Below, piece by piece: positions 1,665 through 37,594 of a DNA stretch of 37,594 nucleotides. The stretch spans positions 1-37,594 of the forward strand of contig JAOAJH010000007.1 in the NCBI GenBank assembly GCA_026414305.1, given 5' to 3'. Source of the DNA: Candidatus Aenigmatarchaeota archaeon. GTDB lineage: Archaea > Aenigmatarchaeota > Aenigmatarchaeia > CG10238-14. A program made the position numbers and the translations under genes. How positions within the stretch are numbered: position 1 is the first letter of the stretch; every line of letters begins with the position of its first letter. Under the pieces are notes generated by a model that worked only from the letters and a program-made list of their open reading frames with translations, was not told the origin of the DNA and ran no database searches.

Positions 1665-3647
1665 ATGAGATTGTTTTGTTTGTTGGCGTTATTGATATTC
1701 ATAAATTCAGTTCAAGCCGCATCGTCAGTTATGAATTCAAGTGTTGGTTTGTTTCCAAACATTTTAATTGATGCAAGGCCTTCAAGTAGTTCATATTGCC
1801 CTGGAGATGTAATAAACATAACAAACAATGTCACTAACATAGGCAACAATCAGACTGTTTTTAGACTTGATCAAAAAATATTTGATCAGTATTCTGTTCT
1901 TTACACAAACGAGACTTGGTATAACCAACAGATATTGCCGATGCAGCAGAATTTTTACTATATGACAAAGTTGGTCGGAGACAATGAAATTGCGGGAATG
2001 TACACCGTAATTACAAATTTAACCTCTCCTATAAATTCAACATTACATGAAACAAACTTTAGAATAAAACAAAAGTATGGAACTCTTGTGTCATCCCCAT
2101 CTTTTATAGAAAAAACTGTTTTTCCAGGCGACTTTATCGTGGAAGATCTCTATTTATGGCTTTTGTTTCCGTGTTATGGCACAAATGTCAGGTTAAATGT
2201 CACAGGTGATATTTCAAATTGGGTTTATTTTTCAGCAAACCCAGTTTATCTTTCTCCTGAAACTTGGAACTATACAAGAATAGGTGTATTCATAGACTTG
2301 CCTTGGAATACAATACCGAGAGATTACACTGGTTATATAATTGCTGAAATAAAGAATGAAGTAACCATGTACATACCAGTCACCATACATGTACAGACGA
2401 CCGCTATATTTGACGTTCAAACAGAAGTCATCTCACAACATAAAGAAGTGTGTCAAGGTAGCGATGTCACGGCCAAGGTAAATTTACTGAAAGTTTTCCC
2501 ACCAGAGCCAATAGACGTAAACATGACATATATAATAGAATATGCAGGAAACAAATATTCTGAAAGAAGAGAAACCATTGCTGTTTTAGATACTTTGGAA
2601 AAGTTTGTTACTTTGAAATTACCTTTAAACTCTCCCGAAGGAATTTACACTTTTTACAGCATTTTGGATGTTTCAACCTCAAACTGGGCTGTGAATATTT
2701 CATCGTCTGACACTTTTAATGTTGTGCTTTGTCAGCAACCACCACCTGTTGCAGGCGGAACACCAGGCGGCGGCCAGTCTTTTCCTTTGGAAGAAAAAAA
2801 GGAAATTTTCCTGAATGTTTCAAGATATAAAATAACAGGGATAGTTGGAAATTTGTCATCTTTCTTTGTAACAGTAAAGAACAATGGTATGCAAGATGTC
2901 ACAAACATAAAACTCCAGATTGACGGGATTCCTCTTGAATGGATAACAGTATCTCCATACAAAGTTGATAAAATAGACAAAGGACAAAGCGCCGACTTTG
3001 TTGTTTTTATAAAAACGCCTTTAGATGCAAAAACAGGTGTCTATCCATTTTCAATAAAAGCCAAAAACTCAGTTGAAAGCAACAAAGAAAATTTAGTTTT
3101 CCTGCTTTCACAAGATGAAAAAAGCCTGACAGAGCTTCTTTTTCAAGAATCAGAGAAATACAGACAAAATGCAAACAGGACGCTTGGTATGAATTGTATT
3201 GATTTATCAGAGTTAAAGGTAAAGTTTCAAGAATCAGAGAAAATAAGAGAGCTTGCAATAGATGCTATGTTAAAGGGTGAATACAAAAAATCACAGGAGT
3301 TTTTCCTGAAAATAATCTCAGATTACGAGTCCATAAATTTAAAAGCCAATTTGTTGATGAAGGAAAGACTTTTGGGCCTCAATATGATAAAAATATTTCC
3401 ATTTGCATCTTCGATAACAGAGGCTAGAGACATGGCTGAGATTAACATGAAAGAAAACCAGTATGAATATTTCTGTGAAAATGTAAATAAAATAGCCAAA
3501 TACAACTCCTATTCTCTTGCAGAAATAATATTTTTATCAATCATTTTAATTTTATCTGCTTGGTTTGGTTATTCTAGATACAAGAAGATGAAAGAGAGAA
3601 GATTTGAGGAAAAACTGAAAGACATAAAACAAAGGCTTGGCTACTAA
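1665..3647 (+). CDS. Single-pass surface protein with NEW3-like domain and helical stalk
   Basis: A signal peptide covers residues 1-18 (cleavage after VQA). Several beta-sandwich-like repeats with many N-glycosylation sequons follow to about residue 355. A Pro/Gly-rich linker (PPPVAGGTPGGG) comes next, then an NPCBM-associated NEW3-like domain at about 375-470, including TVKNNGMQDVTNIKLQIDG. Residues 475-612 form a helical region with two copies of FQESEK, looking like a stalk next to the membrane. One membrane helix lies at about 615-635 with a basic cytoplasmic end. The family resemblance of the NEW3-like part is by eye. The gene is first in the plus-strand operon, 40 bp before the giant ATPase gene, so the two proteins are likely partners at the cell surface. 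No enzymatic motif is visible. Confidence 0.8.
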   Translation: MRLFCLLALLIFINSVQAASSVMNSSVGLFPNILIDARPSSSSYCPGDVINITNNVTNIGNNQTVFRLDQKIFDQYSVLYTNETWYNQQILPMQQNFYYMTKLVGDNEIAGMYTVITNLTSPINSTLHETNFRIKQKYGTLVSSPSFIEKTVFPGDFIVEDLYLWLLFPCYGTNVRLNVTGDISNWVYFSANPVYLSPETWNYTRIGVFIDLPWNTIPRDYTGYIIAEIKNEVTMYIPVTIHVQTTAIFDVQTEVISQHKEVCQGSDVTAKVNLLKVFPPEPIDVNMTYIIEYAGNKYSERRETIAVLDTLEKFVTLKLPLNSPEGIYTFYSILDVSTSNWAVNISSSDTFNVVLCQQPPPVAGGTPGGGQSFPLEEKKEIFLNVSRYKITGIVGNLSSFFVTVKNNGMQDVTNIKLQIDGIPLEWITVSPYKVDKIDKGQSADFVVFIKTPLDAKTGVYPFSIKAKNSVESNKENLVFLLSQDEKSLTELLFQESEKYRQNANRTLGMNCIDLSELKVKFQESEKIRELAIDAMLKGEYKKSQEFFLKIISDYESINLKANLLMKERLLGLNMIKIFPFASSITEARDMAEINMKENQYEYFCENVNKIAKYNSYSLAEIIFLSIILILSAWFGYSRYKKMKERRFEEKLKDIKQRLGY

Positions 3648-3687: not shown

Positions 3688-6600
3688 ATGAAGAATCGTT
3701 CGATTTACTTATTGTTATTGCTATTTATTCTATTTATTTCAATAGCCAGTTCAATTCAGCAGCAAAGCTACATTTTGGATTTGGAAAATACAGTTTTCAA
3801 TTTTTCAACTTATGTTTTCAATGACAGCTCTATTAGCGTCGAGTTGACATTCAACGATAGCGATCATAGAGTAGCATGGATCAATATACCAAAAAACTCT
3901 TCTATAATTGACTCGCGAATTTATTTCCAAGGCTTGATGAAGCCTTTGGCTGCAACAACAAAAGAGCAAATAATAGATCTTAAAGTAGCAAACATAAACA
4001 GCAACATTGATTGGGATGAGATTGTAATAGGGACTACAGGTTCGCCGCATAATATAAGACTTCTCAATGCTTCTGGCTATCAAATATGGAATTATAGCAT
4101 AGACACAGATGTCTCTTCAGTGTCTTTTGGAAATCTTCACAGCAATGCTGGCAAAGAGATAGTTGCTGGCTCAGGTTCACTGTTGTTTTTGTTCAATTCC
4201 ATGGGCAGTCAGCTGCAAAACAAAACAATGAGCACTATAAATGATATTGAAATAGGCGACGTTGTGCCAGGCGGTTTTGATGAAATTGCTATAGCAGCAG
4301 CAGATAACAGAGTCTATCTTTTGTCAAATGATCTTTCTGAACTTTGGAACTATTCATCTTCAATTCAATTCAAGGGTGTTGGTATAGGTGAATTGGATTC
4401 AATTAGTGGTAAAGAAGTGATAGCATCCAGCGGCTCAATTTTGTTTTTGCTTAGCTCAAATGGAAACTTGATAAGCACGAAAGACTTGGGATTTTTGATA
4501 AATGATGTTGACGCATACAACATAGACAATTTTGGATATGATGAAATAGCTGCTGTGACGGACAATGGCACTCTATATGTTTTGGATAATAGTTTAAACG
4601 TGCTTTGGTCATACTCAATCGGTTCTAAAATAGATAGTGTTAAAATAGGCGAGGTCACTACAGAATACTCAGGCAATGAGATAGTGATAGGCAGCTATGA
4701 TGATAATGTTTATGTAATAAGTTCGACCGGAGGCCTTGTTTGGAAATACAAAACAGAAAATGATGTTAAAGGTGTTGGCATAGGAAATCTTACTTCAGAT
4801 CCAGGAAACGAGGTAGTAGCTGGCACTCAAATTCCAGCAAGCCATACGCTGCACATACTTAATTTTGAATACTTTCCTACAGACGTTACACTAGATATAG
4901 GCAACGATGGTGATGTAGATTGGTTTTATCCAAACAAATTTAGAACATCAGCTAACATAACAAACAATACTGAAATTCAAAATTTCTTGAATATTTGCAC
5001 ACCTGATATATCAGGATATTGTCAATTAGGGTTGAACTTCAGCTCAAGCTTCCCAGGTGTTTTGAAAATAGAATCTATAAATCTAACATATGTATACAAC
5101 GCTACAAATCTGCTCCAAGTTTCTACAGTTTCAGAATGGTCTAGAACAAACAATGTTAGGGCAAATGAAAGCGTTGGAAATCAAGTTAAAAGAATAAACT
5201 TTGGAAAGCCGACACAAGACATTCAATTTAAATACATAAAAGTCTCACCTTCAGCGACTTTGTGTGATTTCAACGGAACAAGATATAATACAATTGTTTT
5301 GGGTGGTGTAAAGGTTTGTGACATTTCATCATCACCAAAAACCATTTTTTCTTCACAAAATTCTAGTTCTGACGCCATTTGGGACAATACAATGTCATCT
5401 TATGTTCCCATATTTTACAATGAAACAAACGGAGTTGCTTATGGTGGATTTTGGAGAAAGAACATGACTGTTTGGAATTCAACTTCTCAAGTTTTTACAA
5501 ACATCATATTAAATACAACCCTTGATGAATCTTATATAACAGGGAATTCCAAATTAAGAGTGGAATGGTTTAACAATGGCACACTATATGACATAACTCC
5601 TGTACAATCTCAAACAAACTGCTTGACAAACCCAACATATAGTGAAATTATTTTAGGCGATTACACATTTTTTGTTTGCAAACAAGATACAAATTCAAAT
5701 GGGAAAATAGATTTTTTCATATGGAAACAACCTGACACGAACAGGACACACACATTTTACGAAGTTTCAGGCTCTGCAAACAATCCACCTCAAATAAACA
5801 GCGTGCAAATATCAGCAAATAATTTTTGGGGGAGAAATTTTAGCATAACAGTTAATGTAAGCGATAATGAAGGAAACAACATATCTGTTATACCTTGCTT
5901 AAACTTCACAAAAACATTTAATTTAACTCAAGTAAATCTTTCACAGCTTACATGGCAATGTTTTGATGAAAAGAACTCTACATCAGAAACAACAATTGGC
6001 GAAGAGATTACTTTCACCCTATCTTCAAATTCAACATGGGTAGGCAATAACATACTTACTTTTATGTTGAGGGACTTTGATGGCGAAACTGTTTATCACG
6101 ACTATGAGTACTATGGCTTGTATTTTGGTCCAAATGTGACAAGGCATACAACAAACATTTTGCCTGTGCAGCAACCTTCAGAAGTTAATAGATCCCAAAG
6201 TACAATCTTAAGCGTTTATGCCAATGACACAAGCGATAATTTGCCATCCCCAAATGCTAGATGCGTTTTTTGGGTTAGCCTAAATAATACTTCATGGGAT
6301 TCTGGTTATGTTACAACATCAAACTCATCCGGCTATTGCAGCTATTTGTTTACTCCAAACTCAAGCTACACTCCTGGTTTGAGGTGGTGGAAGGCAGGTG
6401 TTTTAAATGATCAAATTTACAATGACAGCACAAGTTCCAATTTTTCAATTTCTGTTTATGGAAAAATGAGCATAAATTTCACTCAAGAAACTTACAACTT
6501 CAACATCACAAGAAACAGACCAAATATATTGAGAGCAAGAATTTACGACGAATATGGCCAAACAATAAATCAAACAGGCCAGCAGTGCGTATTTTCAATC

Positions 6601-9600
6601 AACCAAACTCAAATCGGAACAAACGTCACATCATCTGGTTTTTGTCTAATTAACTTTCAACCATCTTGCAGCTATGATTTGGGCTTGTATATTCTAAATG
6701 CTTCTGTGTCAAGCAGCACAAATCCATATTATCATTTAAATCAATCAGAGCACGCAGCCCAGAGCTATTTGAAAGAAAACATAAATAGCTCTATAATTTC
6801 ACCATTATCAACACAAATATTTCACAAAGGCCAACAGATGAATGTATCCTCTTACATAATAGATTCTTGCGGCGTCCCTCAACATTCATATACATCAACG
6901 TGGATTTTCAACTGTTCCTCAATATATCCGCCAAACCCTTACAACACGACAATAGGTACTAATATATCATCAGTTGTTCAGTGCAATCCAGGAATCTTGT
7001 ATCTTTCAAACAGAATTTCAGGAGATCTTTACAATCAACAAACATCATCTATCAGCTTAGACGTTTATGGATGGTCAAAAGTAAAAATGATACAGCCAAC
7101 AAACGGCACATACAACAGAACAGAAACAAACAGAATAATAAACATAACATGCGAAGTCACTGATTCAAACAACACAGCGATAAAGCTGGATCCCTACAAT
7201 GTTGATATATTGTACAGGTATGAAGGTGGCGATTTTGTTAGGCTTACAAATATGAACACTGTTTCTCCAACAGGCACTGTAAACTACATTTGGAACATAT
7301 CTTCAAATCAAACAGTTCCCGAAGGACTTTACACAATAATGTGCAATATAACAGATCAAAATCTTGACATGAATAGAAAATACAATGCTTCACAAAAAGA
7401 GGATTATACAGACATAGTCATAATTGAAAAGGACACAACTCCGCCTAAAATTGTCAGCTTAAGAATAAATTCCACTCTTAAAGGCGGCAACACATCAATT
7501 CAAGCAAACATAACAGACTGGTATGGTGTCAGCCGTGTGTGGATGGATGTTTATTATCCAAATCAGACTTTTAACAGATTTTATTTGATAAATCAGACAG
7601 CTGATACAAAACAAACAATATGGTATTACAATTTTTCAAACATGCAGCTGCTCGGTGATTATGACATTTACGTTTATGCGAATGACACGTCAAACTACAC
7701 TTCATCAAATCACACGTGGTTTGAAGTTTATGAAACAATACAGCTTTACGCAGAGACAAATTATCCTTTGAGATATACAATGTATAGGCCTGGAACGAGA
7801 TTTATTATACACAACTATACAAATCCTGCTGGACAGCAAAATTTAACATTACATCAAAGAAATTATGATTTTGTCGCGCAAATACAAGATGATGCTGCGC
7901 AAATGCATGAAATAATTTTCAATGATTTGAATTCAACGCTCACATCAAAGCAGCAGTTTGGTTCTGTTACAAACATAACAAACCCACTAAATATTTCAAC
8001 AATACCTCTGATAATTTTGAATCCGCCTGTGCCATGGAGACATGAAATAGCAGGTGTTTACATTTCATCAAGCTTTGCATATTCAAACCTGACGGTTTCT
8101 TTTGACTATTCAAAGAAAATCGGTGAAATAGACTATGCACCTGCTTTAGTAATATACAAATGCTCTAACTGGACAGGCCAATGCAATTCCGAATGGCAGC
8201 AGCTTAATACAACAATAAACACAACTTCTTATAGAGCATATACAATTCAAAACAGCACGTCGGCCTATTATCTTTTTGAGGCAGAAATATGCGGCAACGG
8301 CATATGCGGCACAGGCGAATCTTGCGTAAATTGCATTTCTGATTGTGGTGAATGCTCTACTGGCGGATCAACAGGTCAGGCAGCAGGCGCGCCTTCTTCT
8401 GGATCAGGCAGCTCAGGCTATAGAGAGGTTTGCGGCAATGGTATATGCGATCCAAATGAAAACGCATTCAGCTGCCCGCAAGACTGCTCAAGTTTCTTCA
8501 GCGTAAAAACAAACTTAACTCAAGATTATGTGAATCCAGGCAGCAGAAAAACATATTCATTGTGGCTGTCAAACATGATGTCTCAGTCAATACAAGCAGA
8601 AATAATTATAAACGGCCCTGTTTCAAACATACTGTCTTTGAATCAAAAATCAGTTTTAGTGGAATCGCTAAAAGAAGTTGAAATACCAATACAACTTTCT
8701 GTACCAGAAAACATTCAAGTTGGAACTTATACAGGAGAAATAATAGTGTCAAGCGGAAGAAGGGAAAGATTGCCTGTCACAATATTTGTCACAAAAGATA
8801 CATCTGAACTCCAAATGAGCTTGAAAACATTGACAAAAACATTAAAGCCTAACGAAACTCTTGTTTTTGAGCTTAACTTTTTCAGCTTAACCCAAAAAAA
8901 GGAGATGAATACAGAGATAGTTTACACAATACAAAAGATGAAAGGCAATGAAATAATTTATCAGGAAATTGAGAATGCTTTTGTGTCGACTCCGCATCAC
9001 ATAATAAAATATATTCACTTGCCTGAAAACATAACATCAGGGAAATATTATGTCATGGTAAATGCAACTTACGATGGCGGCAAACTTTCTTCTGTAGACA
9101 GCTTTGATGTATCTTCCCCATTCCTCACAGCATCCACTGTCAGATATATTTTGATAGCAACAGCTTTTGTGCTGCTGTCTATAATAGGATTTATAGTTAT
9201 AAGAAAATACAGCGAATGGAAGAAATCAAAACTAAGATACATATTCCCTGTAAACTTTAATCTTCTTCCAAAAGGCGATCTAAGTCTTGGCAAAATAGCA
9301 GAAACAAACATCAAGGCAACGTTTGCTTCAGGTGACATAACAACTCACATTATAGTTGCAGGGTCAACCGGCGCAGGCAAGTCAGTTTCAGCAAGCATAT
9401 TTGCAGAAGAACTGCTTGAAAAGAAAATACCAGTTGTTGTTTTCGACCCAACAGCGCAATGGACTGGTTTTGTCAAGCCATGCAAAGATGAGAATGTTTT
9501 GAAATATTACAAAAATCATGGCTTGACTGTTGACAATACAAAATCCTATCCAGGAAACATATATGAAATGACAGATCCCAAAGCAAAAATAGATTTCAAA

Positions 9601-10302
9601 AAATACATGAATCCAGGCGAAATAACTGTTTTTGTCTTGAATAAATTAAAGCCTGGAGAGTATGACGAGGCTGTTACGAATATAATTGATAGCATTTTCA
9701 GCCAGTCATGGGAAGAGTCCACACAACCTAAATTGATAATAGTTTTTGACGAAGTTCACAGGCTCCTTGAAAAATATGGCGGCAAAGGTGGCTATGTAGC
9801 TTTGGAAAGGGCGTGCAGAGAATTCAGAAAGTGGGGCATCGGCTTAATAATGGCTTCTCAAGTTTTGTCAGACTTCAAAGAAGCAATAAAAGGTAATGTA
9901 TTGACAGAAATACAAATGCACACAAAAAGCTTGAATGATCTGCAAAGAATTGAAAAGAAATATGGATTGGAATATGCTAGAAGAGTTGCAAAGGAAGAGG
10001 TAGGCATAGGAATGATACAAAACCCAAAGTACAACAAAGGTATGCCTTGGTTTATTTCGTTCAGACCGCCATTGCACATGCCGCACAAGATAACAGACCA
10101 AGAAATGCAAATGTATAAAGAATATAATTCTAGAATTGAAAAATTAGAACAGGAGATAGAGAGATTGGCAAGCACAGGAAAGGATGTGTTTGATTTGAGA
10201 ATAGAGTTGAAGCTTGCAAAAGACAAGCTAAAGAAAGGAATGTTCAGAGTCGCAGAAATATACATAGAATCTTTGAACAAAAAATTGGGGTTGAGTAAAT
10301 GA
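3688..10302 (+). CDS. Giant type I membrane protein: propeller/Ig ectodomain fused to a HerA/FtsK-like ATPase
   Basis: The protein has 2204 residues. Residues 1-22 are a signal peptide. Residues about 90-390 hold seven repeats of the type xVxIGxLxxxxGxEIVxGxxD, resembling FG-GAP/PQQ-like beta-propeller blades. A long stretch of Ig-like, sequon-rich domains follows to about 1530. Two Cys-rich knots start CGNGIC near 1534 and 1580, and a NEW3-like domain lies at about 1607-1705. One membrane helix spans about 1819-1839 with a basic inner side. The cytoplasmic part has Walker A GSTGAGKS (1892-1899), Walker B LIIVFDE near 2016-2022 and a MASQ motif near 2054, as in HerA/VirB4/FtsK-type (DUF87) pumps. 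A helical tail ends the protein. The N-terminal HAS barrel of HerA is not visible. The next gene overlaps the stop (ATGA) and encodes a coiled coil. It is probably an ATP-driven surface or translocation machine, but its substrate is unknown. Confidence 0.85.
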   Translation: MKNRSIYLLLLLFILFISIASSIQQQSYILDLENTVFNFSTYVFNDSSISVELTFNDSDHRVAWINIPKNSSIIDSRIYFQGLMKPLAATTKEQIIDLKVANINSNIDWDEIVIGTTGSPHNIRLLNASGYQIWNYSIDTDVSSVSFGNLHSNAGKEIVAGSGSLLFLFNSMGSQLQNKTMSTINDIEIGDVVPGGFDEIAIAAADNRVYLLSNDLSELWNYSSSIQFKGVGIGELDSISGKEVIASSGSILFLLSSNGNLISTKDLGFLINDVDAYNIDNFGYDEIAAVTDNGTLYVLDNSLNVLWSYSIGSKIDSVKIGEVTTEYSGNEIVIGSYDDNVYVISSTGGLVWKYKTENDVKGVGIGNLTSDPGNEVVAGTQIPASHTLHILNFEYFPTDVTLDIGNDGDVDWFYPNKFRTSANITNNTEIQNFLNICTPDISGYCQLGLNFSSSFPGVLKIESINLTYVYNATNLLQVSTVSEWSRTNNVRANESVGNQVKRINFGKPTQDIQFKYIKVSPSATLCDFNGTRYNTIVLGGVKVCDISSSPKTIFSSQNSSSDAIWDNTMSSYVPIFYNETNGVAYGGFWRKNMTVWNSTSQVFTNIILNTTLDESYITGNSKLRVEWFNNGTLYDITPVQSQTNCLTNPTYSEIILGDYTFFVCKQDTNSNGKIDFFIWKQPDTNRTHTFYEVSGSANNPPQINSVQISANNFWGRNFSITVNVSDNEGNNISVIPCLNFTKTFNLTQVNLSQLTWQCFDEKNSTSETTIGEEITFTLSSNSTWVGNNILTFMLRDFDGETVYHDYEYYGLYFGPNVTRHTTNILPVQQPSEVNRSQSTILSVYANDTSDNLPSPNARCVFWVSLNNTSWDSGYVTTSNSSGYCSYLFTPNSSYTPGLRWWKAGVLNDQIYNDSTSSNFSISVYGKMSINFTQETYNFNITRNRPNILRARIYDEYGQTINQTGQQCVFSINQTQIGTNVTSSGFCLINFQPSCSYDLGLYILNASVSSSTNPYYHLNQSEHAAQSYLKENINSSIISPLSTQIFHKGQQMNVSSYIIDSCGVPQHSYTSTWIFNCSSIYPPNPYNTTIGTNISSVVQCNPGILYLSNRISGDLYNQQTSSISLDVYGWSKVKMIQPTNGTYNRTETNRIINITCEVTDSNNTAIKLDPYNVDILYRYEGGDFVRLTNMNTVSPTGTVNYIWNISSNQTVPEGLYTIMCNITDQNLDMNRKYNASQKEDYTDIVIIEKDTTPPKIVSLRINSTLKGGNTSIQANITDWYGVSRVWMDVYYPNQTFNRFYLINQTADTKQTIWYYNFSNMQLLGDYDIYVYANDTSNYTSSNHTWFEVYETIQLYAETNYPLRYTMYRPGTRFIIHNYTNPAGQQNLTLHQRNYDFVAQIQDDAAQMHEIIFNDLNSTLTSKQQFGSVTNITNPLNISTIPLIILNPPVPWRHEIAGVYISSSFAYSNLTVSFDYSKKIGEIDYAPALVIYKCSNWTGQCNSEWQQLNTTINTTSYRAYTIQNSTSAYYLFEAEICGNGICGTGESCVNCISDCGECSTGGSTGQAAGAPSSGSGSSGYREVCGNGICDPNENAFSCPQDCSSFFSVKTNLTQDYVNPGSRKTYSLWLSNMMSQSIQAEIIINGPVSNILSLNQKSVLVESLKEVEIPIQLSVPENIQVGTYTGEIIVSSGRRERLPVTIFVTKDTSELQMSLKTLTKTLKPNETLVFELNFFSLTQKKEMNTEIVYTIQKMKGNEIIYQEIENAFVSTPHHIIKYIHLPENITSGKYYVMVNATYDGGKLSSVDSFDVSSPFLTASTVRYILIATAFVLLSIIGFIVIRKYSEWKKSKLRYIFPVNFNLLPKGDLSLGKIAETNIKATFASGDITTHIIVAGSTGAGKSVSASIFAEELLEKKIPVVVFDPTAQWTGFVKPCKDENVLKYYKNHGLTVDNTKSYPGNIYEMTDPKAKIDFKKYMNPGEITVFVLNKLKPGEYDEAVTNIIDSIFSQSWEESTQPKLIIVFDEVHRLLEKYGGKGGYVALERACREFRKWGIGLIMASQVLSDFKEAIKGNVLTEIQMHTKSLNDLQRIEKKYGLEYARRVAKEEVGIGMIQNPKYNKGMPWFISFRPPLHMPHKITDQEMQMYKEYNSRIEKLEQEIERLASTGKDVFDLRIELKLAKDKLKKGMFRVAEIYIESLNKKLGLSK

Positions 10303-11513
10303 TTCTACCTAAAAAAGATGATAAAAAAGAGGCTTTGAAAGCAAAGTTTGGCGTTACAAAAGACATACCAAAACAACAAGTTCAAGAAGAAGTTGTCAAA
10401 CAAGAGAAAACAAATGTACAGGAAGCCGATGTAAATCCATTAAGCTTGCTGCTTAGAATTGAAAAACTCGAGGGGAAATTTTCTGCTTTTGAAGACATAA
10501 AAGATGACATAAATGAGAGAATATCAAGAATTTCAGAGGAAATAGGCGAGTTGCGATCATCATTTCTTGAGCTTGACAAAAATTTCACTTCATTGGAAGC
10601 CAGAGTCGAAAAGTTTCTTGACGCAGTAAGCCAGATACAACCAGAAAAGTTTTACAAAGACTTGCAAAAAAAGGAAGCAGACATAATGAAATTGCAGGCA
10701 GAGACAGAATCAATAAGGATTGTTTTGACTTCATTGAAAAAGGAAAATGAAAAATTGAATTCTGTTTTGGAGAAAATAAAAAACATTGAAAATCTTGTTG
10801 TGATGTACAAAAAATTGAGCGAAAAAATACAGCTGATAGATGACACCAAAGTTTATGTTGATAGGCTAGCTGGAAAATCAGAGACAATATTTTCTGAAAT
10901 GGAAAGCAAAATGAAGGATGTTGAAGACATGAAAGCAAAAGTTGCGAAACTTGATGATTTGACAGTTGACATAGTCAAAATGCTTGATGGTGTGAGCATA
11001 AAAATACCAAAGTTTATTGAAAAGGAGAATGTTGAAAAACTGATAGATGAGATGACAAAAAGAAGCATTGAAAATGTCAATAAAAACTACTTGAATGAAA
11101 TAAAGGCTATAGCAGAATCTACAAAAAATCAAGCCAAAAAAGAAATAGAAGATGAGAAGGTCAAATTAAAATCAACTTTGAGCGAGCTGACATCATTGTT
11201 AGATTCAGTTAAAAAGGAAATTTCTTCAAAATCAGCTACAGTTATTGATCAAAAGGTTGATTTATACTTTAAATTTTTACAAGCTGTTTCAAGTTTTAAT
11301 ACGCTTTCAACAAAAGAAGAAATTTCATCAAACATGGAGCTTGTGAGATCTTTAAGAAATAGATTGATTCAAATAAATGCATGGACAAATGACGCTGAAA
11401 ATTATTTGTTGCGAAGCTTGTATTATATTAGCTTTGTTTGGGAGCAATATGGCAACCAAGAAATAAAACAAATGATAGATCAAGAAATATTTTCATTAAC
11501 AAGGAGACCCTGA
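10299..11513 (+). CDS. Cytoplasmic coiled-coil protein coupled to the giant ATPase
   Basis: This 404-residue protein has no signal peptide or membrane segment. After a charged N-terminus (about 1-45) it is mostly heptad-rich helix to about residue 330, with a Lys/Glu-rich composition. It ends in a compact helical domain (about 330-404) with aromatic residues (YISFVWEQYG). The ATG overlaps the stop of the ATPase gene by 4 bp, which implies translational coupling and probably a physical complex with its cytoplasmic domain. The coiled coil loosely recalls archaellum accessory proteins of the FlaC/D/E type, but I see no diagnostic motif, so I do not assign that. Its 3' end overlaps the convergent 802-residue gene by 18 bp. 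Confidence 0.8.
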   Translation: MILPKKDDKKEALKAKFGVTKDIPKQQVQEEVVKQEKTNVQEADVNPLSLLLRIEKLEGKFSAFEDIKDDINERISRISEEIGELRSSFLELDKNFTSLEARVEKFLDAVSQIQPEKFYKDLQKKEADIMKLQAETESIRIVLTSLKKENEKLNSVLEKIKNIENLVVMYKKLSEKIQLIDDTKVYVDRLAGKSETIFSEMESKMKDVEDMKAKVAKLDDLTVDIVKMLDGVSIKIPKFIEKENVEKLIDEMTKRSIENVNKNYLNEIKAIAESTKNQAKKEIEDEKVKLKSTLSELTSLLDSVKKEISSKSATVIDQKVDLYFKFLQAVSSFNTLSTKEEISSNMELVRSLRNRLIQINAWTNDAENYLLRSLYYISFVWEQYGNQEIKQMIDQEIFSLTRRP

Positions 11514-13904
11514 TTCCACATTTCTAACTGAAAATGTTGTGTTGTATATTCCAGACGGCTTGTCTCTTTCAACATAAAGCCAAAATCTGAAATAATGATA
11601 CTCTCCAGGCATTACGTTCTCAGCTATTTTAACATAGCTTGTGCTCAAGTTTCTGTCTGAACTAAATGATGGATATGTTGCATTGTTAAACGTAGAGTTG
11701 GTGAAAGCCACGTTTGATGCTGATATTGTCATTGTTGTACAAGGTCCATTGTAGCATGTCAAATCTGCGTTAGCCTTTAAGCAAAAGTCTTGATTTACAT
11801 TGCCGCTGTTGTAAATCCAATACATTGTTTTATTGTCTCCATGTGAAGGTGTTTTATTATAGTTCCAAGTTGCATTGTTCCATTTTTCTATTTCTACCGG
11901 CAGTTGAGTGTTGTTTAAAGAACCATTAACGCTTGTGAAAAATATACCTTGAGATAATTTTTCTGACAATGACACAGAAATTATTTTTGGGAATAGTATT
12001 ATTTCAACAATTTTACTTTGGTTGATGTATTCTATAGTTGAGTTGAACATATTTTCTTTACTTGCTGAAAAATTATACGGGCTAGCACAACTTAAATTGG
12101 ATTGCGAGGATGGGCAAGAATAGACATAGCTGCCGTTAGCAAAGAATTCTGGCAGTAGCTGCGTTTCAATGTAGCCGTTGCTGCCTGTGTAGCTTGAATG
12201 GATCAAGCTGTTTGTGTAGTTTGTGATGTTGACTTGAGCAGCGTTTATAGGATCAGTGAAGTTTCTGACATAAACATCAACATAATAAGAAACATTTATC
12301 CATGCATTTAAAGCTGTAGATTCCCAAGAAACTTTTGACTTGTTAAAGCTTGTGTTGATTATTTGCATGGAGCTGTTTTCTCTGAATCTTATGTGATCTG
12401 CTGTTGTGTTTATTGTGTTGTTAATCAATGTCAAATTGAAGCTGCTTTCATAAACATAAAATCCATAAGATCCGCTGTTAAAGGAAATGGCAGAATTGTT
12501 GACAAACTGATTTTTTGAAGCAGCCCTTAGCATGTTAACATAACTCCACCATCCATTTGCCCTCAAGTAGTTGCTTTTAACCAAATTGTTCTCGCTGGAA
12601 TAAAGGTATACGCCATAAGCATAATCACCCGAAGTGGAGATATGATTCAAATTAATTGTGTTGTTAGTGCTTTGATACATGAAAATGCCGCTAGCAGAAT
12701 CTGCATTTGTTGTTATGTTGTTCGATTCTATTGTGTTGTTTGCGCTTGTATGAGTTATTATTCCATATGAAGTTCCAATAATTGTTATGTTGGAATTTTT
12801 TATTGTGTTGTTTTTGCTGGAGTCCATGGCAACGCCATAAGAGTTTGTTCCTCTTGTGGTTATGTTGACGGATTGCGCAGTTGAAAAGTTTGAATAGTAA
12901 AAGTAGATTCCATAAGAATAATCATAGCTGCCTCCAGACATTCTACAGTTCTTCACAGTGACATTATTTTTTTGTTCAACATAAACACCATAACCGCTTG
13001 CTGACTGCGCATAATTTATTCTTTTCCAATTGCAGTCCAATTCAACATTATTTGCTGTTATGTTAAAGCAAGTTCCAATGGCAGAAACATCATTGTCAAG
13101 CCTATAATAGCCGCTTGATGTTATGTTTTGACAACCAGACAAAATACCTATTTGTATGTTATTTGTGCCTGTCACAAACCAATTTCCACAAGTATCATTG
13201 GCATAAATTCTCCATGAAACAACAGTACTAGAAAAGGATGAATTTTGCCAAGTAAAATTACTCCAACCAGAATTGGCTCTTATGGTTAGGGGAGATCCGT
13301 ATATGCTTTTGTTTTGCCATACACCAGTTTCATTTGTTTCCAATATCGCATGAGAAATATTTCCATTGTCTTGCCAAAAAGCGTAAATTTTAACTGCTTG
13401 GCCAACATTGATGCTGCTGACATTTTGCCCTATGTTTGAAGCAATAGGCAGCACATCATCTATTTTACAGCATAATTGATTTGCATAGAAGCCAGGTTCA
13501 CCAATATGGGAGTTTGTGCTTGAATTCATAGAAACCAACGCATACTCACCGCTCAAGCAGCTGCTTCTTAGAGTGCATATCCACGGGCAATCAACACAAA
13601 CCCTGTAATTATAATTCCCTTCAGTGAAAACTTCTGCATGCGAATTGGTATAATTAAACATGGAAATAGTACCATTCTGGCCCAAGCTACAAGATGATTT
13701 TATTTCGACATTGGTTAGATAAGGGTCAGAACAGCATGTCAGGTTTCCATAAGCAGTGCAGTTTCCAACATGAGTATTATTAGCCTGAAATCTTGAAAAA
13801 AGGCAAAATTCTCCTGGATTGCATGAATTCTGTCTTATAGTGCACTGTATAGCCAGAACTGACGGCAATAATACAATCAAAAATGCAATCCAAGCGGTTT
13901 TCAT
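11496..13904 (-). CDS. Secreted beta-helix protein with Cys-rich N-terminus and four-Cys C-terminal module
   Basis: A signal peptide (1-18) leads into a Cys-rich region (19-145) with three related motifs: NNTHVGNCTAYGNLTCC, TNSHAEV...CVDC and TNSHIGE...CC. An Ig-like domain follows (about 150-255). Residues about 260-520 are a right-handed parallel beta-helix of the NosD/pectate-lyase type, with repeated NNTIxxNxI turns. After an Ig-like linker, residues 648-802 carry the same module as the 198-residue protein at 1001-1597. It includes a C-x8-C-x4-C cluster and ends in cysteine (VESGSPC). No membrane anchor is visible. Beta-helices of this kind often bind or cleave polysaccharide, but no catalytic residues can be assigned here. 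A TATA-like AAAAATAAATTT about 26 bp upstream suggests a leaderless mRNA. Confidence 0.8.
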   Translation of the reverse strand: MKTAWIAFLIVLLPSVLAIQCTIRQNSCNPGEFCLFSRFQANNTHVGNCTAYGNLTCCSDPYLTNVEIKSSCSLGQNGTISMFNYTNSHAEVFTEGNYNYRVCVDCPWICTLRSSCLSGEYALVSMNSSTNSHIGEPGFYANQLCCKIDDVLPIASNIGQNVSSINVGQAVKIYAFWQDNGNISHAILETNETGVWQNKSIYGSPLTIRANSGWSNFTWQNSSFSSTVVSWRIYANDTCGNWFVTGTNNIQIGILSGCQNITSSGYYRLDNDVSAIGTCFNITANNVELDCNWKRINYAQSASGYGVYVEQKNNVTVKNCRMSGGSYDYSYGIYFYYSNFSTAQSVNITTRGTNSYGVAMDSSKNNTIKNSNITIIGTSYGIITHTSANNTIESNNITTNADSASGIFMYQSTNNTINLNHISTSGDYAYGVYLYSSENNLVKSNYLRANGWWSYVNMLRAASKNQFVNNSAISFNSGSYGFYVYESSFNLTLINNTINTTADHIRFRENSSMQIINTSFNKSKVSWESTALNAWINVSYYVDVYVRNFTDPINAAQVNITNYTNSLIHSSYTGSNGYIETQLLPEFFANGSYVYSCPSSQSNLSCASPYNFSASKENMFNSTIEYINQSKIVEIILFPKIISVSLSEKLSQGIFFTSVNGSLNNTQLPVEIEKWNNATWNYNKTPSHGDNKTMYWIYNSGNVNQDFCLKANADLTCYNGPCTTMTISASNVAFTNSTFNNATYPSFSSDRNLSTSYVKIAENVMPGEYHYFRFWLYVERDKPSGIYNTTFSVRNVESGSPC

Positions 13905-13934
13905 TGAAATAATTTTGTTATTTGAAAAATAAAT

Positions 13935-15200
13935 TTAATTCAAGCTAGCCAAAAATTCAATATTTGTCCTTGTTTCTGTCTCTGTCTGTTCAAAAACCAC
14001 ATCTTCGCTCTTGTATACTAGCGAGCCAAAAAATTCATTGCCTCTAAGATCACTTGAAATTACATTCACATATCTTGAGCTTACTATCACCAAGCCATTT
14101 TTGTTGTTTTTAGCATTCAAACCCTCAATTATCACATTTTCAGAATTCTTTACCATCAAAGCCACTTCAGCATCAAGAACATTGCAATTAACTATTTTTA
14201 TGTCTTTCGCATCTTTTACAATTATACCAAATTTGGCTGCTTTTATACTATAATGCTTACAATCCATTGTTGTATTAAATCCTGTAATTGTAAAAGCAGT
14301 GTCTTCTGATAACACATCGTTGTCAAGCACTATATCGCCTTGTATGTGTTTTTCCTTTTCAACCGTGAAGTTTGCTTCAAAAACTCTTTCATCAGTTAAA
14401 TAAAGAGAAAACGTGTAAGAGCCAGGTTCAAACAGCTCATTGAAAATATAAAAACCATTTTGGTTTGTTTTTGCAAAATATACTTTTGACAAATTAAGCG
14501 AATCAAATTTCAATGCAACATCTGTTTCTGGATCAGCATAGACTTTGAGCGAAACATTTTCAACATAATTATCCTGTATCTCCACCTTTGCTTCGCTTTC
14601 TTTCTTGATTATTTCGAAATTTTCAGAAACGGTTTTGTTCAAGTAATCTAAAACAACGGTGTATATACCTTCGGAAAGATTCAAGTTGACGACAAAGCTG
14701 CCGTTTTCATTTGTGGATGCATACAATGCAAATATGCTTGAGCCGTCTTTGTTAACACTCAAACTAAAATTTGTATTATCAGATCCGCTTATGTTTATAT
14801 AAAAAGGAATGTTTGAATAATGTTTTTTTTCCAAAAAAACATAAAGCACTTTATCATCTCCTGTCAAGTTGCTTTCATCTAAATTATTTTCAGTTGAATT
14901 GCTTACATAAAAAGATCGATTTACATCCATTTCTATTACTCTTATATAGGTTGAATTTATGATGTCTGTCAAGTTGTAAAAAACCAAGTAATAATTCCCA
15001 GGAGATATATTAAATGAATAATAATCGGTTAAATTTGAAAATATGATGCTGTTGTTTTCGTCATATATGTCTAAAACAAGACCACTAAAGTTTATCGACT
15101 GGTTTTGAACGTATAAAGTCAAATTATAGTCTTGAGACATGTTTTGGGATATAGCAATGCCTAAAATAGCAAATAGCATCAAAAAGACGGCCTTTTTCAT
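13935..15200 (-). CDS. Secreted protein with Ig-like repeats and C-terminal beta-helix
   Basis: A signal peptide covers residues 1-18. Three beta-sandwich-like domains follow (about 25-125, 125-205 and 205-285), with phrases typical of carboxypeptidase-regulatory-like folds such as NENGSFVVNLNLSEGIYTV and NQNGFYIFNELFEPGSYTF. Residues about 285-405 are a short parallel beta-helix with DIKIVNCNV, NVIIEGLNAKNN and YVNVISSDLRGN coils. No membrane anchor or catalytic motif is visible. The gene lies upstream of, and on the same strand as, the 802-residue beta-helix gene 30 bp away, so the two may work together on the cell surface. A TATA-like stretch near 15214-15230 overlaps the end of the aIF2-beta gene and would give a leaderless transcript. 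Confidence 0.75.
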   Translation of the reverse strand: MKKAVFLMLFAILGIAISQNMSQDYNLTLYVQNQSINFSGLVLDIYDENNSIIFSNLTDYYSFNISPGNYYLVFYNLTDIINSTYIRVIEMDVNRSFYVSNSTENNLDESNLTGDDKVLYVFLEKKHYSNIPFYINISGSDNTNFSLSVNKDGSSIFALYASTNENGSFVVNLNLSEGIYTVVLDYLNKTVSENFEIIKKESEAKVEIQDNYVENVSLKVYADPETDVALKFDSLNLSKVYFAKTNQNGFYIFNELFEPGSYTFSLYLTDERVFEANFTVEKEKHIQGDIVLDNDVLSEDTAFTITGFNTTMDCKHYSIKAAKFGIIVKDAKDIKIVNCNVLDAEVALMVKNSENVIIEGLNAKNNKNGLVIVSSRYVNVISSDLRGNEFFGSLVYKSEDVVFEQTETETRTNIEFLASLN

Positions 15201-36192: not shown

Positions 36193-36412
36193 AATTCCTA
36201 GAGAAGAAATAGAAAAATGGATGGAAAAACTTGAAAAAAAATTGAAAGACGTCAAAATAAGTAAAGAAAATGAAAATTTTGTTAAAAACATTAACGCTTA
36301 TGTCAAGGATTGCAAATATTGGATTGAAAAAGGAGATTATGTCAAGGCATGGGAAGTTATATCATTTGCATGGGGCTTGTATGAAGCAGGAGTTGAGCTT
36401 AACTTTATTTGA
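36179..36412 (+). CDS. DUF357-family small helical protein
   Basis: The 77-residue protein has the helical DUF357 pattern, ending with YVKDCKYWIEKGDYVKAWEVISFAWGLYEAG. The KGDYVKAWEVISFAWG part is the family's best-conserved stretch. Its function is unknown. It overlaps dphB and is cotranscribed with it, a pairing also plausible as a conserved archaeal neighbourhood. It overlaps the convergent membrane-protein gene by 8 bp. Confidence 0.85.
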   Translation: MIKDRIPREEIEKWMEKLEKKLKDVKISKENENFVKNINAYVKDCKYWIEKGDYVKAWEVISFAWGLYEAGVELNFI

Positions 36413-37007
36413 ATTTACTTTCTGGAATGAAAACATACTTTTTGTTCCTTTCATCTTCTGATAATTCCTTTTCATCTTTTATGACAAACCCTATTATAAT
36501 AACAGTTGCTATTACAAGAATTATCAAAGCAACATCTTTTCCGCTTATGTTGACACCAGGCGGAATCAAGTTTGAAAACAGCTTTACGCCACCGCTAGAA
36601 ACAAACATGGCTAGTATTATCAATGCACCGACAAGCAATACAGGCCCTACCCTTTGAACAACCCAATTTTCTTGCTTAAAGAAAGGCGACCATATAAACA
36701 TTGAAACAACCATTGCAAATACCATCAACAATATCAAAGCAATTGATGATTGAGTGAAAAATGTTGCAAAGAAGTTGCTTATAGGTATAGCAGCAGGTGA
36801 AAATATTGTAACATACATAGCAGCTATAAATGAAACTAGAGCAGAAATTTTATTTCCAGTCGGATCAGTTCCACTTATTTTGAATAATCCCATTCTTTTT
36901 AGTAACCCAAAAAATATTGCAAAAGTCAGCAGAAAAGGCAGATAAACTTCATACACACCTTGCGTTTTTAGAACTCCTATCAATCCTTGCAAAGCATTTT
37001 CCGCCAT
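36405..37007 (-). CDS. Five-helix membrane protein, paralogue of the next gene
   Basis: ATG 37007 gives MAENALQGLIGVLKTQ and about 200 residues. It starts 7 bp after the stop of the upstream copy, so I prefer it to the in-frame ATG at 37022. There are five hydrophobic helices, with the loop GGVKLFSNLIPPGVNISG between helices 4 and 5, and a charged tail (DEKELSEDERNKKYVF). It is the diverged twin of the gene at 37015. I recognise no family. Small membrane protein pairs in tandem may form hetero-oligomers, which is only inference. Confidence 0.75.
   Translation of the reverse strand: MAENALQGLIGVLKTQGVYEVYLPFLLTFAIFFGLLKRMGLFKISGTDPTGNKISALVSFIAAMYVTIFSPAAIPISNFFATFFTQSSIALILLMVFAMVVSMFIWSPFFKQENWVVQRVGPVLLVGALIILAMFVSSGGVKLFSNLIPPGVNISGKDVALIILVIATVIIIGFVIKDEKELSEDERNKKYVFIPESKFK
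36496..36608. repeat. Nearly identical patch shared by the tandem membrane-protein genes (copy 1)
   Basis: This 113-bp stretch matches 37082-37194 with only two mismatches that I can see. It covers helix 5 and the loop before it. Flanking parts of the genes differ much more, including in length. Confidence 0.9.
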
Positions 37008-37014
37008 TATATCA

Positions 37015-37594
37015 CTATGCATTTACAACATGAATATAATCTTTTTGTGGGGCAGGACCCTCTCTTGTCACTGCACTTATAATAATAACAGTTGCTATTA
37101 CAAGAATTATCAAAGCAACATCTTCCCCGCTTATGTTGACACCAGGCGGAATCAAGTTTGAAAACAGCTTTACGCCACCGCTAGAAACAAACATACCCAA
37201 AACAATCAAGCCACCAACTCCTAATATTATAGGCACAGCATCCTTACCAAATTCAAAAATCTTTTTTTGGGAAAAGAAAGGTGACCATAAAAACATTGAA
37301 ACAACCATTGCAAATACCATCAACAATATCAAAGCAATTGATGATTGAGTGAAGAATGTTGCAAAAAAATGGCTTATAGGTATGGCGGCTGGTGAAAATA
37401 TTGTAACATACATTGCAGCTATGAATGCAATTAATGCAGAAATTTTGTTGCCTGAATCATCTGGTTTTCCGTCAGAAGTCAATGTTTTGAACAGCCCCAT
37501 TCTTCTCAACAATCCATAAAATATTGCAAAAGTCAGCAGAAAAGGCAGATAAACTTCATACACACCCTGCGTTTTTAGAACTCCTATCAATCCT
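37015..37594 (-). CDS. Five-helix membrane protein, second tandem copy (5' end outside window)
   Basis: The reading frame runs off the right edge, so the N-terminus is missing; the first visible residues are GLIGVLKTQ, matching codon 8 onward of the neighbour. Five helices are in the same positions as in the neighbouring copy, but the linker after helix 1 is longer (TSDGKPDDSGNK) and the C-terminal tail is different (REGPAPQKDYIHVVNA). The gene is upstream of and probably cotranscribed with the other copy. Function is unknown. Confidence 0.75.
   Translation of the reverse strand, partial: GLIGVLKTQGVYEVYLPFLLTFAIFYGLLRRMGLFKTLTSDGKPDDSGNKISALIAFIAAMYVTIFSPAAIPISHFFATFFTQSSIALILLMVFAMVVSMFLWSPFFSQKKIFEFGKDAVPIILGVGGLIVLGMFVSSGGVKLFSNLIPPGVNISGEDVALIILVIATVIIISAVTREGPAPQKDYIHVVNA
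37082..37194. repeat. Nearly identical patch shared by the tandem membrane-protein genes (copy 2)
   Basis: Counterpart of 36496-36608 at an offset of 586 bp. A second patch, near the 5' ends (36904-36984 against 37518-37594), is almost identical as well. Confidence 0.9.

Follow-up and report, generated by a model that had tools for sequence, protein, structure and literature searches.

Architecture of the giant protein and its relation to SPEARE proteins

The locus described here raises the question of what an ATPase does when it is built into the cytoplasmic end of a giant surface protein. It lies in the window, by which we mean the whole analyzed stretch of 37,594 nucleotides, from the 819-kb genome of a DPANN archaeon that is probably host-dependent. 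The initial annotation had described a single frame of 2204 residues containing a signal peptide, a seven-repeat propeller, Ig-like domains, two CGNGIC modules, one membrane helix and Walker A and B motifs, and a coiled-coil gene starting inside its stop codon. All of these elements were found (Table 1), including the gene overlap, where the ATG in AATGATT overlaps the TGA stop. Six of the propeller repeats were detected by pattern search, and the seventh (DNFGYDEIAAV) was read off the translation; Ig/NEW3-type domains are present in the ectodomain. All transmembrane calls are based on hydropathy, and the topology of an exported ectodomain with a cytoplasmic end is supported by the distribution of N-X-S/T sequons, with 84 outside the membrane versus 0 inside.

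Table 1. Features of the giant ATPase locus, with positions in the window
Feature	Coordinates	Strand	Remarks
Surface protein of 660 aa, with signal peptide, NEW3-like Ig domain, TM 615-637 and 23-aa cytoplasmic tail	1665..3647	+	NPCBM_assoc E 1.5e-6
Whole gene of the giant SPEARE-like surface ATPase (2204 aa)	3688..10302	+	single open frame
Signal peptide, residues ~1-26	3688..3765	+	hydropathy
Seven-repeat beta-propeller, residues ~97-390	3976..4857	+	repeat pattern; PF25292 E 3e-12
Membrane-proximal stalk, residues ~1245-1825	7420..9162	+	ectodomain part alignable across family
Two CGNGIC modules within stalk, residues 1535 and 1582	8290-8307, 8431-8448	+	
Single TM helix, residues ~1811-1842, then K/R-rich inside flank	9118..9213	+	hydropathy; helix in predicted model
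Walker A GSTGAGKS, residues 1892-1899	9361..9384	+	
Walker B LIIVFDE, residues 2016-2022	9733..9753	+	
Invariant REFRKWG, residues 2044-2050, candidate arginine finger	9817..9837	+	aligns with REGRKFG of HerA
C-terminal three-helix domain, residues ~2137-2199	10096..10284	+	confident prediction, conserved
Coiled-coil partner CC, cytoplasmic, 404 aa, with signature SEEIGELRS	10299..11513	+	ATG overlaps upstream stop

The ectodomain is variable beyond close relatives, except for its last ~580 residues before the membrane, which align in most members of the family, and the stalk, the membrane helix and the motor therefore form a constant unit. Values of dN/dS are ~0.02 for the ATPase part and ~0.10-0.16 for the ectodomain, indicating purifying selection over the full length of the window gene.

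It had also been stated that no described system with this layout was known. This proved wrong, and since the layout is known, the first claim to novelty fails. Hamm et al. (2019, PMC6642349) named the SPEARE proteins in Nanohaloarchaeota and noted that their conserved intracellular part also occurs in Woesearchaeota, Aenigmarchaeota, Micrarchaeota and Altiarchaeales. For SVXNc_0300/BNXNv_0298, Reva et al. (2023, PMC10266531) described the order signal peptide, Ig, propellers, ~75 Ig domains, transmembrane helix, VirB4/TraG-like ATPase and coiled coil, reported a second VirB4-like ATPase gene downstream of the giant gene, proposed a "straw" by which the giant protein secretes effectors into the host, and disputed the protease and endonuclease domains of SPEARE proteins. 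The window protein likewise has a signal peptide, a large adhesion-type exterior with propeller, Ig domains and Ig array, a single transmembrane helix near the C-terminus, and a cytoplasmic ATPase that is the most conserved part, and it too is encoded by a DPANN archaeon. It differs in its length, 2204 aa versus ~6,000-9,400 aa for the nanohaloarchaeal SPEARE/giant proteins, and in its coiled coil, which is here a separate, overlapping gene. No Laminin-G, serine protease or toxin-like domain was matched by Pfam in the window protein or in the scanned pieces of its paralogue.

Published SPEARE proteins of the EX4484-52 MAGs measure 8146 and 3105 aa in KA24 and 12,127 aa in KA27 (PMC8470020). 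Our A1 profile matched frames of 8146 and 3107 aa in genome G181 and of 12,145 aa in G186 (E 3e-185, 1e-190 and 4e-198). These frames equal or nearly equal the published lengths, and the conserved intracellular domain is taken as homologous to the one in the SPEARE proteins of those MAGs; this identity is defined by matching protein lengths and published domain layout rather than by accessions, and the halophilic members were compared by description. On this sequence comparison, the window gene encodes a short SPEARE-like protein.

Classification of the motor domain

Profile searches kept the C-terminal domain inside the HerA clade, in agreement with the HerA/FtsK assignment made at first sight. 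Pfam matched DUF87 (E 4e-10) and HerA_C (E 2.5e-7) in the window protein, and both models were matched in 29/29 members, as were the NCBIfam models of CedD and HerA. The top NCBIfam model for the window member was CedD (NF053655), followed by HerA, with VirB4/TraC types well behind; the CedD score was 59 bits against a curated cut-off of 600, and its best stretch was the P-loop region. The AlphaFold2 model of the cytoplasmic domain (pTM 0.77) was used as the query of a fold search, and Sulfolobus HerA (PDB 4d2i) was the closest solved structure both by this search and by sequence profile. Little or no variation was seen across 110 distinct homologues at the Walker A lysine, at H2024, in the acid pair of Walker B or in REFRKWG. 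The motor is HerA/CedD-like and, judged by its residues, catalytically intact.

The window motor shares with the hexameric DNA translocase HerA a RecA-type core, Walker A and B motifs, REGRKxG...Q motifs and a REGRKFG-like arginine motif. Unlike HerA proper, it is anchored by a transmembrane helix and is devoid of a HAS barrel, for which the window protein has no room, with only ~50 residues between the helix and Walker A. The HAS barrel serves assembly in HerA. The conserved C-terminal three-helix domain is TPR-like in the predicted model and is a candidate docking site.

CedD is a membrane-anchored ATPase of the HerA clade in Sulfolobales, on which DNA import in Saccharolobus depends (PMC11868833). 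It resembles the window motor in being membrane-anchored and HerA-type, but has no giant ectodomain, and no CedA-like or pilus genes recur as neighbors at the loci of the giant ATPase. Two separate soluble HerA-type genes (L190, L191) are present in the same genome as the window. One motor gene copy, at locus L181 (G127:C1), has TAG codons in its frame, and the CC gene next to it is intact; this copy may be a pseudogene or an instance of recoding.

A conserved coiled-coil partner

A relative of CC adjoins the ATPase gene in the first set of loci wherever the flank is present. A CC profile built from this set and run on 40 further loci of other genomes detected CC in 35. In the pooled loci CC was found in 64/70, in 62 cases downstream on the same strand, with 15 genes overlapping the ATPase gene and 25 more lying within 100 bp. 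Among the six misses, two loci are cut at a contig or stretch end; the other four have no recognizable CC despite some flank, and one of these is near a contig end. Genome-wide (E<1e-20), CC was detected in 20/22 ATPase-positive versus 0/35 ATPase-negative relatives, and in the two ATPase-positive genomes without it the ATPase match is at a contig end. The coupling of the ATPase to a coiled-coil partner, suggested initially from the window, is thus stronger than was claimed. The distances of the motor are correlated with those of CC (rho 0.65, 0/2000 permutations), a mirror-tree signal that partly reflects species history, and each of the two systems in the window's genome has a CC lineage of its own. 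Judging from this linkage, CC is likely a dedicated cytoplasmic partner, almost obligate in that it almost always accompanies the giant ATPase. Previous descriptions, as given in their open-access main texts, seem to have missed it.

CC was predicted to form long helices (pTM 0.27), and a comparison with solved structures gave no match. Like CC, the archaellum accessory proteins ArlC/FlaC are coiled coils, and their profile matches it weakly. An identity of CC with FlaC/ArlC (PF05377) was considered and rejected, since the match (E 1.7e-4) scored 22.4 bits versus a gathering cut-off of 27.8 and is of the generic coiled-coil kind; PF05377 was matched by only 4/28 CC members, and other coiled-coil models match at least as often. 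Downstream of CC, convergent secreted proteins are encoded on the minus strand (11496-15200), the first of which has a right-handed beta-helix and overlaps the end of CC by 18 bp. The window ends in a tandem pair of very similar polytopic membrane proteins of 205 and at least 192 aa (36405-37593).

A second surface protein and a shared helical hairpin

The gene for the 660-aa protein is directly upstream of the giant ATPase gene, with a gap of 40 bp, and the order is the same in two sister genomes. Large signal-peptide proteins with one C-terminal transmembrane helix recur beside the ATPase-CC pair. The Woesearchaeota-type order is a ribbon-helix-helix regulator, a ~1,000-aa PKD/Ig surface protein, a ~1,300-aa ATPase and CC; in other phyla, a 1,000-2,100-aa protein of NEW3/MG2 type often follows CC. 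At L158, L159, L161, L165, L174, L177 and L178, the operon of the Woesearchaeota type is opened by a conserved ribbon-helix-helix protein of ~90 aa.

Several of the NEW3/MG2-type proteins have a cytoplasmic tail with a SHOCT-like helical hairpin, GIISExxYxELxxKNxEKL; the likeness to SHOCT comes from CC members, which gave three weak Pfam matches. A strict regular expression found few hairpins, and a profile was needed. Seeded only from seven surface-protein tails, this profile matched 23/64 CC proteins versus 1/449 other ORFs. The presence of one hairpin in both CC and the tails suggests homotypic docking. The hairpin is absent from the CC and the 660-aa protein of the window, so docking must differ in the window's subfamily.

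Distribution of the family and a second system in the same genome

A profile search with the cytoplasmic domain returned homologues in three DPANN phyla, with CC as a recurrent neighbor. Relatives of the cytoplasmic domain are present in 22/57 near genomes, and homologous frames were found in 55/156 genomes of Aenigmatarchaeota, the phylum of the window, in 24/34 genomes of a second DPANN phylum and in 40/194 genomes of a third, the Woesearchaeota-type group. Frames are ~1,100-1,400 aa long in most Woesearchaeota-type genomes. The longest, in genome G060 (L155, L156), has 15,809 aa and is accompanied there by frames of 11,928 and 9,175 aa, very large for archaea.

The window's genome carries a second SPEARE-like system, consisting of a frame of 11,249 aa and a separate CC of 462 aa (L044-L046; G000:C12, ~80.7-114 kb). 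A Pfam scan over most of this paralogue gave only NEW3/DUF11/MG2/Ig-like matches and no enzyme domain. The proteins of this system are 99-100% identical between G000 and G003, which looked like recent transfer; the DNA, however, is 83-89% identical, as are the flanks, and the near-identity is therefore no evidence of transfer. For one and the same pair of genomes, the window and L005 have 69-76% DNA identity, and L044 and L057 have 83-89%; mixed bins or uneven divergence are candidate causes of this inequality.

Proposed mechanism and alternative explanations

The reading that we favor, at about even confidence, is that of a contact-dependent, ATP-driven surface machine of the SPEARE family, held together by CC, that most probably moves a polymer where it meets the host. 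The giant protein is exported via its signal peptide and held by one membrane helix, and the propeller and the Ig array form a long adhesive ectodomain displayed on the conserved stalk. Under the membrane, the HerA/CedD-type motor is expected to assemble as a ring, presumably a hexamer. In complex with the motor, CC would scaffold the ring and link it to the second membrane-anchored surface protein. Binding of the host could then activate the motor, which would move a polymer at the contact site, DNA being a likelier cargo than protein because of the relationship to CedD and HerA. No polytopic membrane protein recurs near the ATPase as a channel component in the clustered loci; ComEC is absent from 57/57 relatives, for which reason DNA uptake via ComEC was dropped as a pathway. 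With no channel gene, PF03135 or ComEC, translocation would need the ring's own transmembrane helices or an unlinked channel. The missing HAS barrel, and the missing hairpin in the window's CC and its 660-aa neighbor, likewise count against this reading.

The absence of a channel gene would also fit a machine that is not a pump, in which an ATP-driven ring clusters, positions or locks adhesins at the contact pole and signals inward via the coiled coil. The coiled-coil scaffold and the shared hairpins suggest assembly, as this explanation would have it, and genes for MinD/ParA-like ATPases are present in six CC loci (L052, L053, L055, L056, L058 and L157), adjoining CC in L052 and L058. At the degenerate locus L185, a short piece of CC and a MinD fragment are left and the giant gene is gone. 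Two response-regulator-like (CheY-like) genes and a CheC/CheX-like gene lie near CC at L188:10046-11422. The MinD count may, however, be near chance for stretches of 15-20 kb and is taken as a lead only, the Che genes represent a single locus, and the motor residues, with the candidate arginine finger among them, are kept more strictly (dN/dS 0.02) than a static scaffold needs. We regard this as the main alternative, possible but less probable than the machine that moves a polymer.

That the protein belongs to a type IV secretion system, its VirB4/TraG-like ATPase injecting effectors into the host through the "straw" of Reva et al. (2023), appears unlikely. The published layout with its second VirB4-like ATPase gene points in this direction, as do weak matches to the T4SS-DNA_transf and TraD models and the tandem second ATPase copies at L147, L155, L156, L177 and L178. 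In the fold search, however, a VirB4 structure ranked only 43rd, and the CedD and HerA models, matched throughout the family, outscore those of VirB4 type in the window member. Membership by way of PF03135, the VirB4 N-terminal domain, was dropped: the domain was found in 0/57 relatives, which include the window's own genome and of which 22 carry the giant protein, and the control matches in Caulobacter. Linked VirB6/VirB8-like membrane components are likewise not recurrent neighbors in the clustered loci. At several of the tandem loci a giant copy lies beside a ~700-aa copy with signal peptide and transmembrane helix; the two possibly form mixed rings, and the ATPase gene that follows SVXNc_0300 in the published description may be accounted for by a short copy of this type.

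An assembly join, or a fusion of two unrelated genes, for which the draft state of the genome and the unusual domain order would speak, has next to no probability and is refuted by comparison with independent genomes: the continuous frame recurs in sister genomes and across three DPANN phyla with the stalk kept together with the motor, and since the sister genomes share frame and gene order, dN/dS is low and the catalytic residues are kept, the window frame is neither chance nor join.

Returning to the polymer-moving machine, a wider reading may be offered tentatively, namely that the three DPANN phyla share a translocation or contact system of its own kind. In such a system a HerA-type motor ring would be fused to giant adhesins, held by a dedicated coiled-coil scaffold and joined by a second surface receptor docked via SHOCT-like hairpins, without type IV secretion parts. 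Short ATPase copies in tandem would make the giant arms sparser in a mixed ring.

Implications for DPANN-host interaction

SPEARE proteins are a main suspect in the means by which DPANN archaea attach to their hosts and exploit them. Their enzymatic end was earlier called a (type III) restriction enzyme and then a type IV secretion ATPase of VirB4/TraG type, whereas the comparison made here places the motor with HerA and CedD. New are this placement, the finding that the lineage has no VirB4-type marker of type IV secretion, and two candidate components, CC and the second surface protein, both of which can be expressed and their binding tested.
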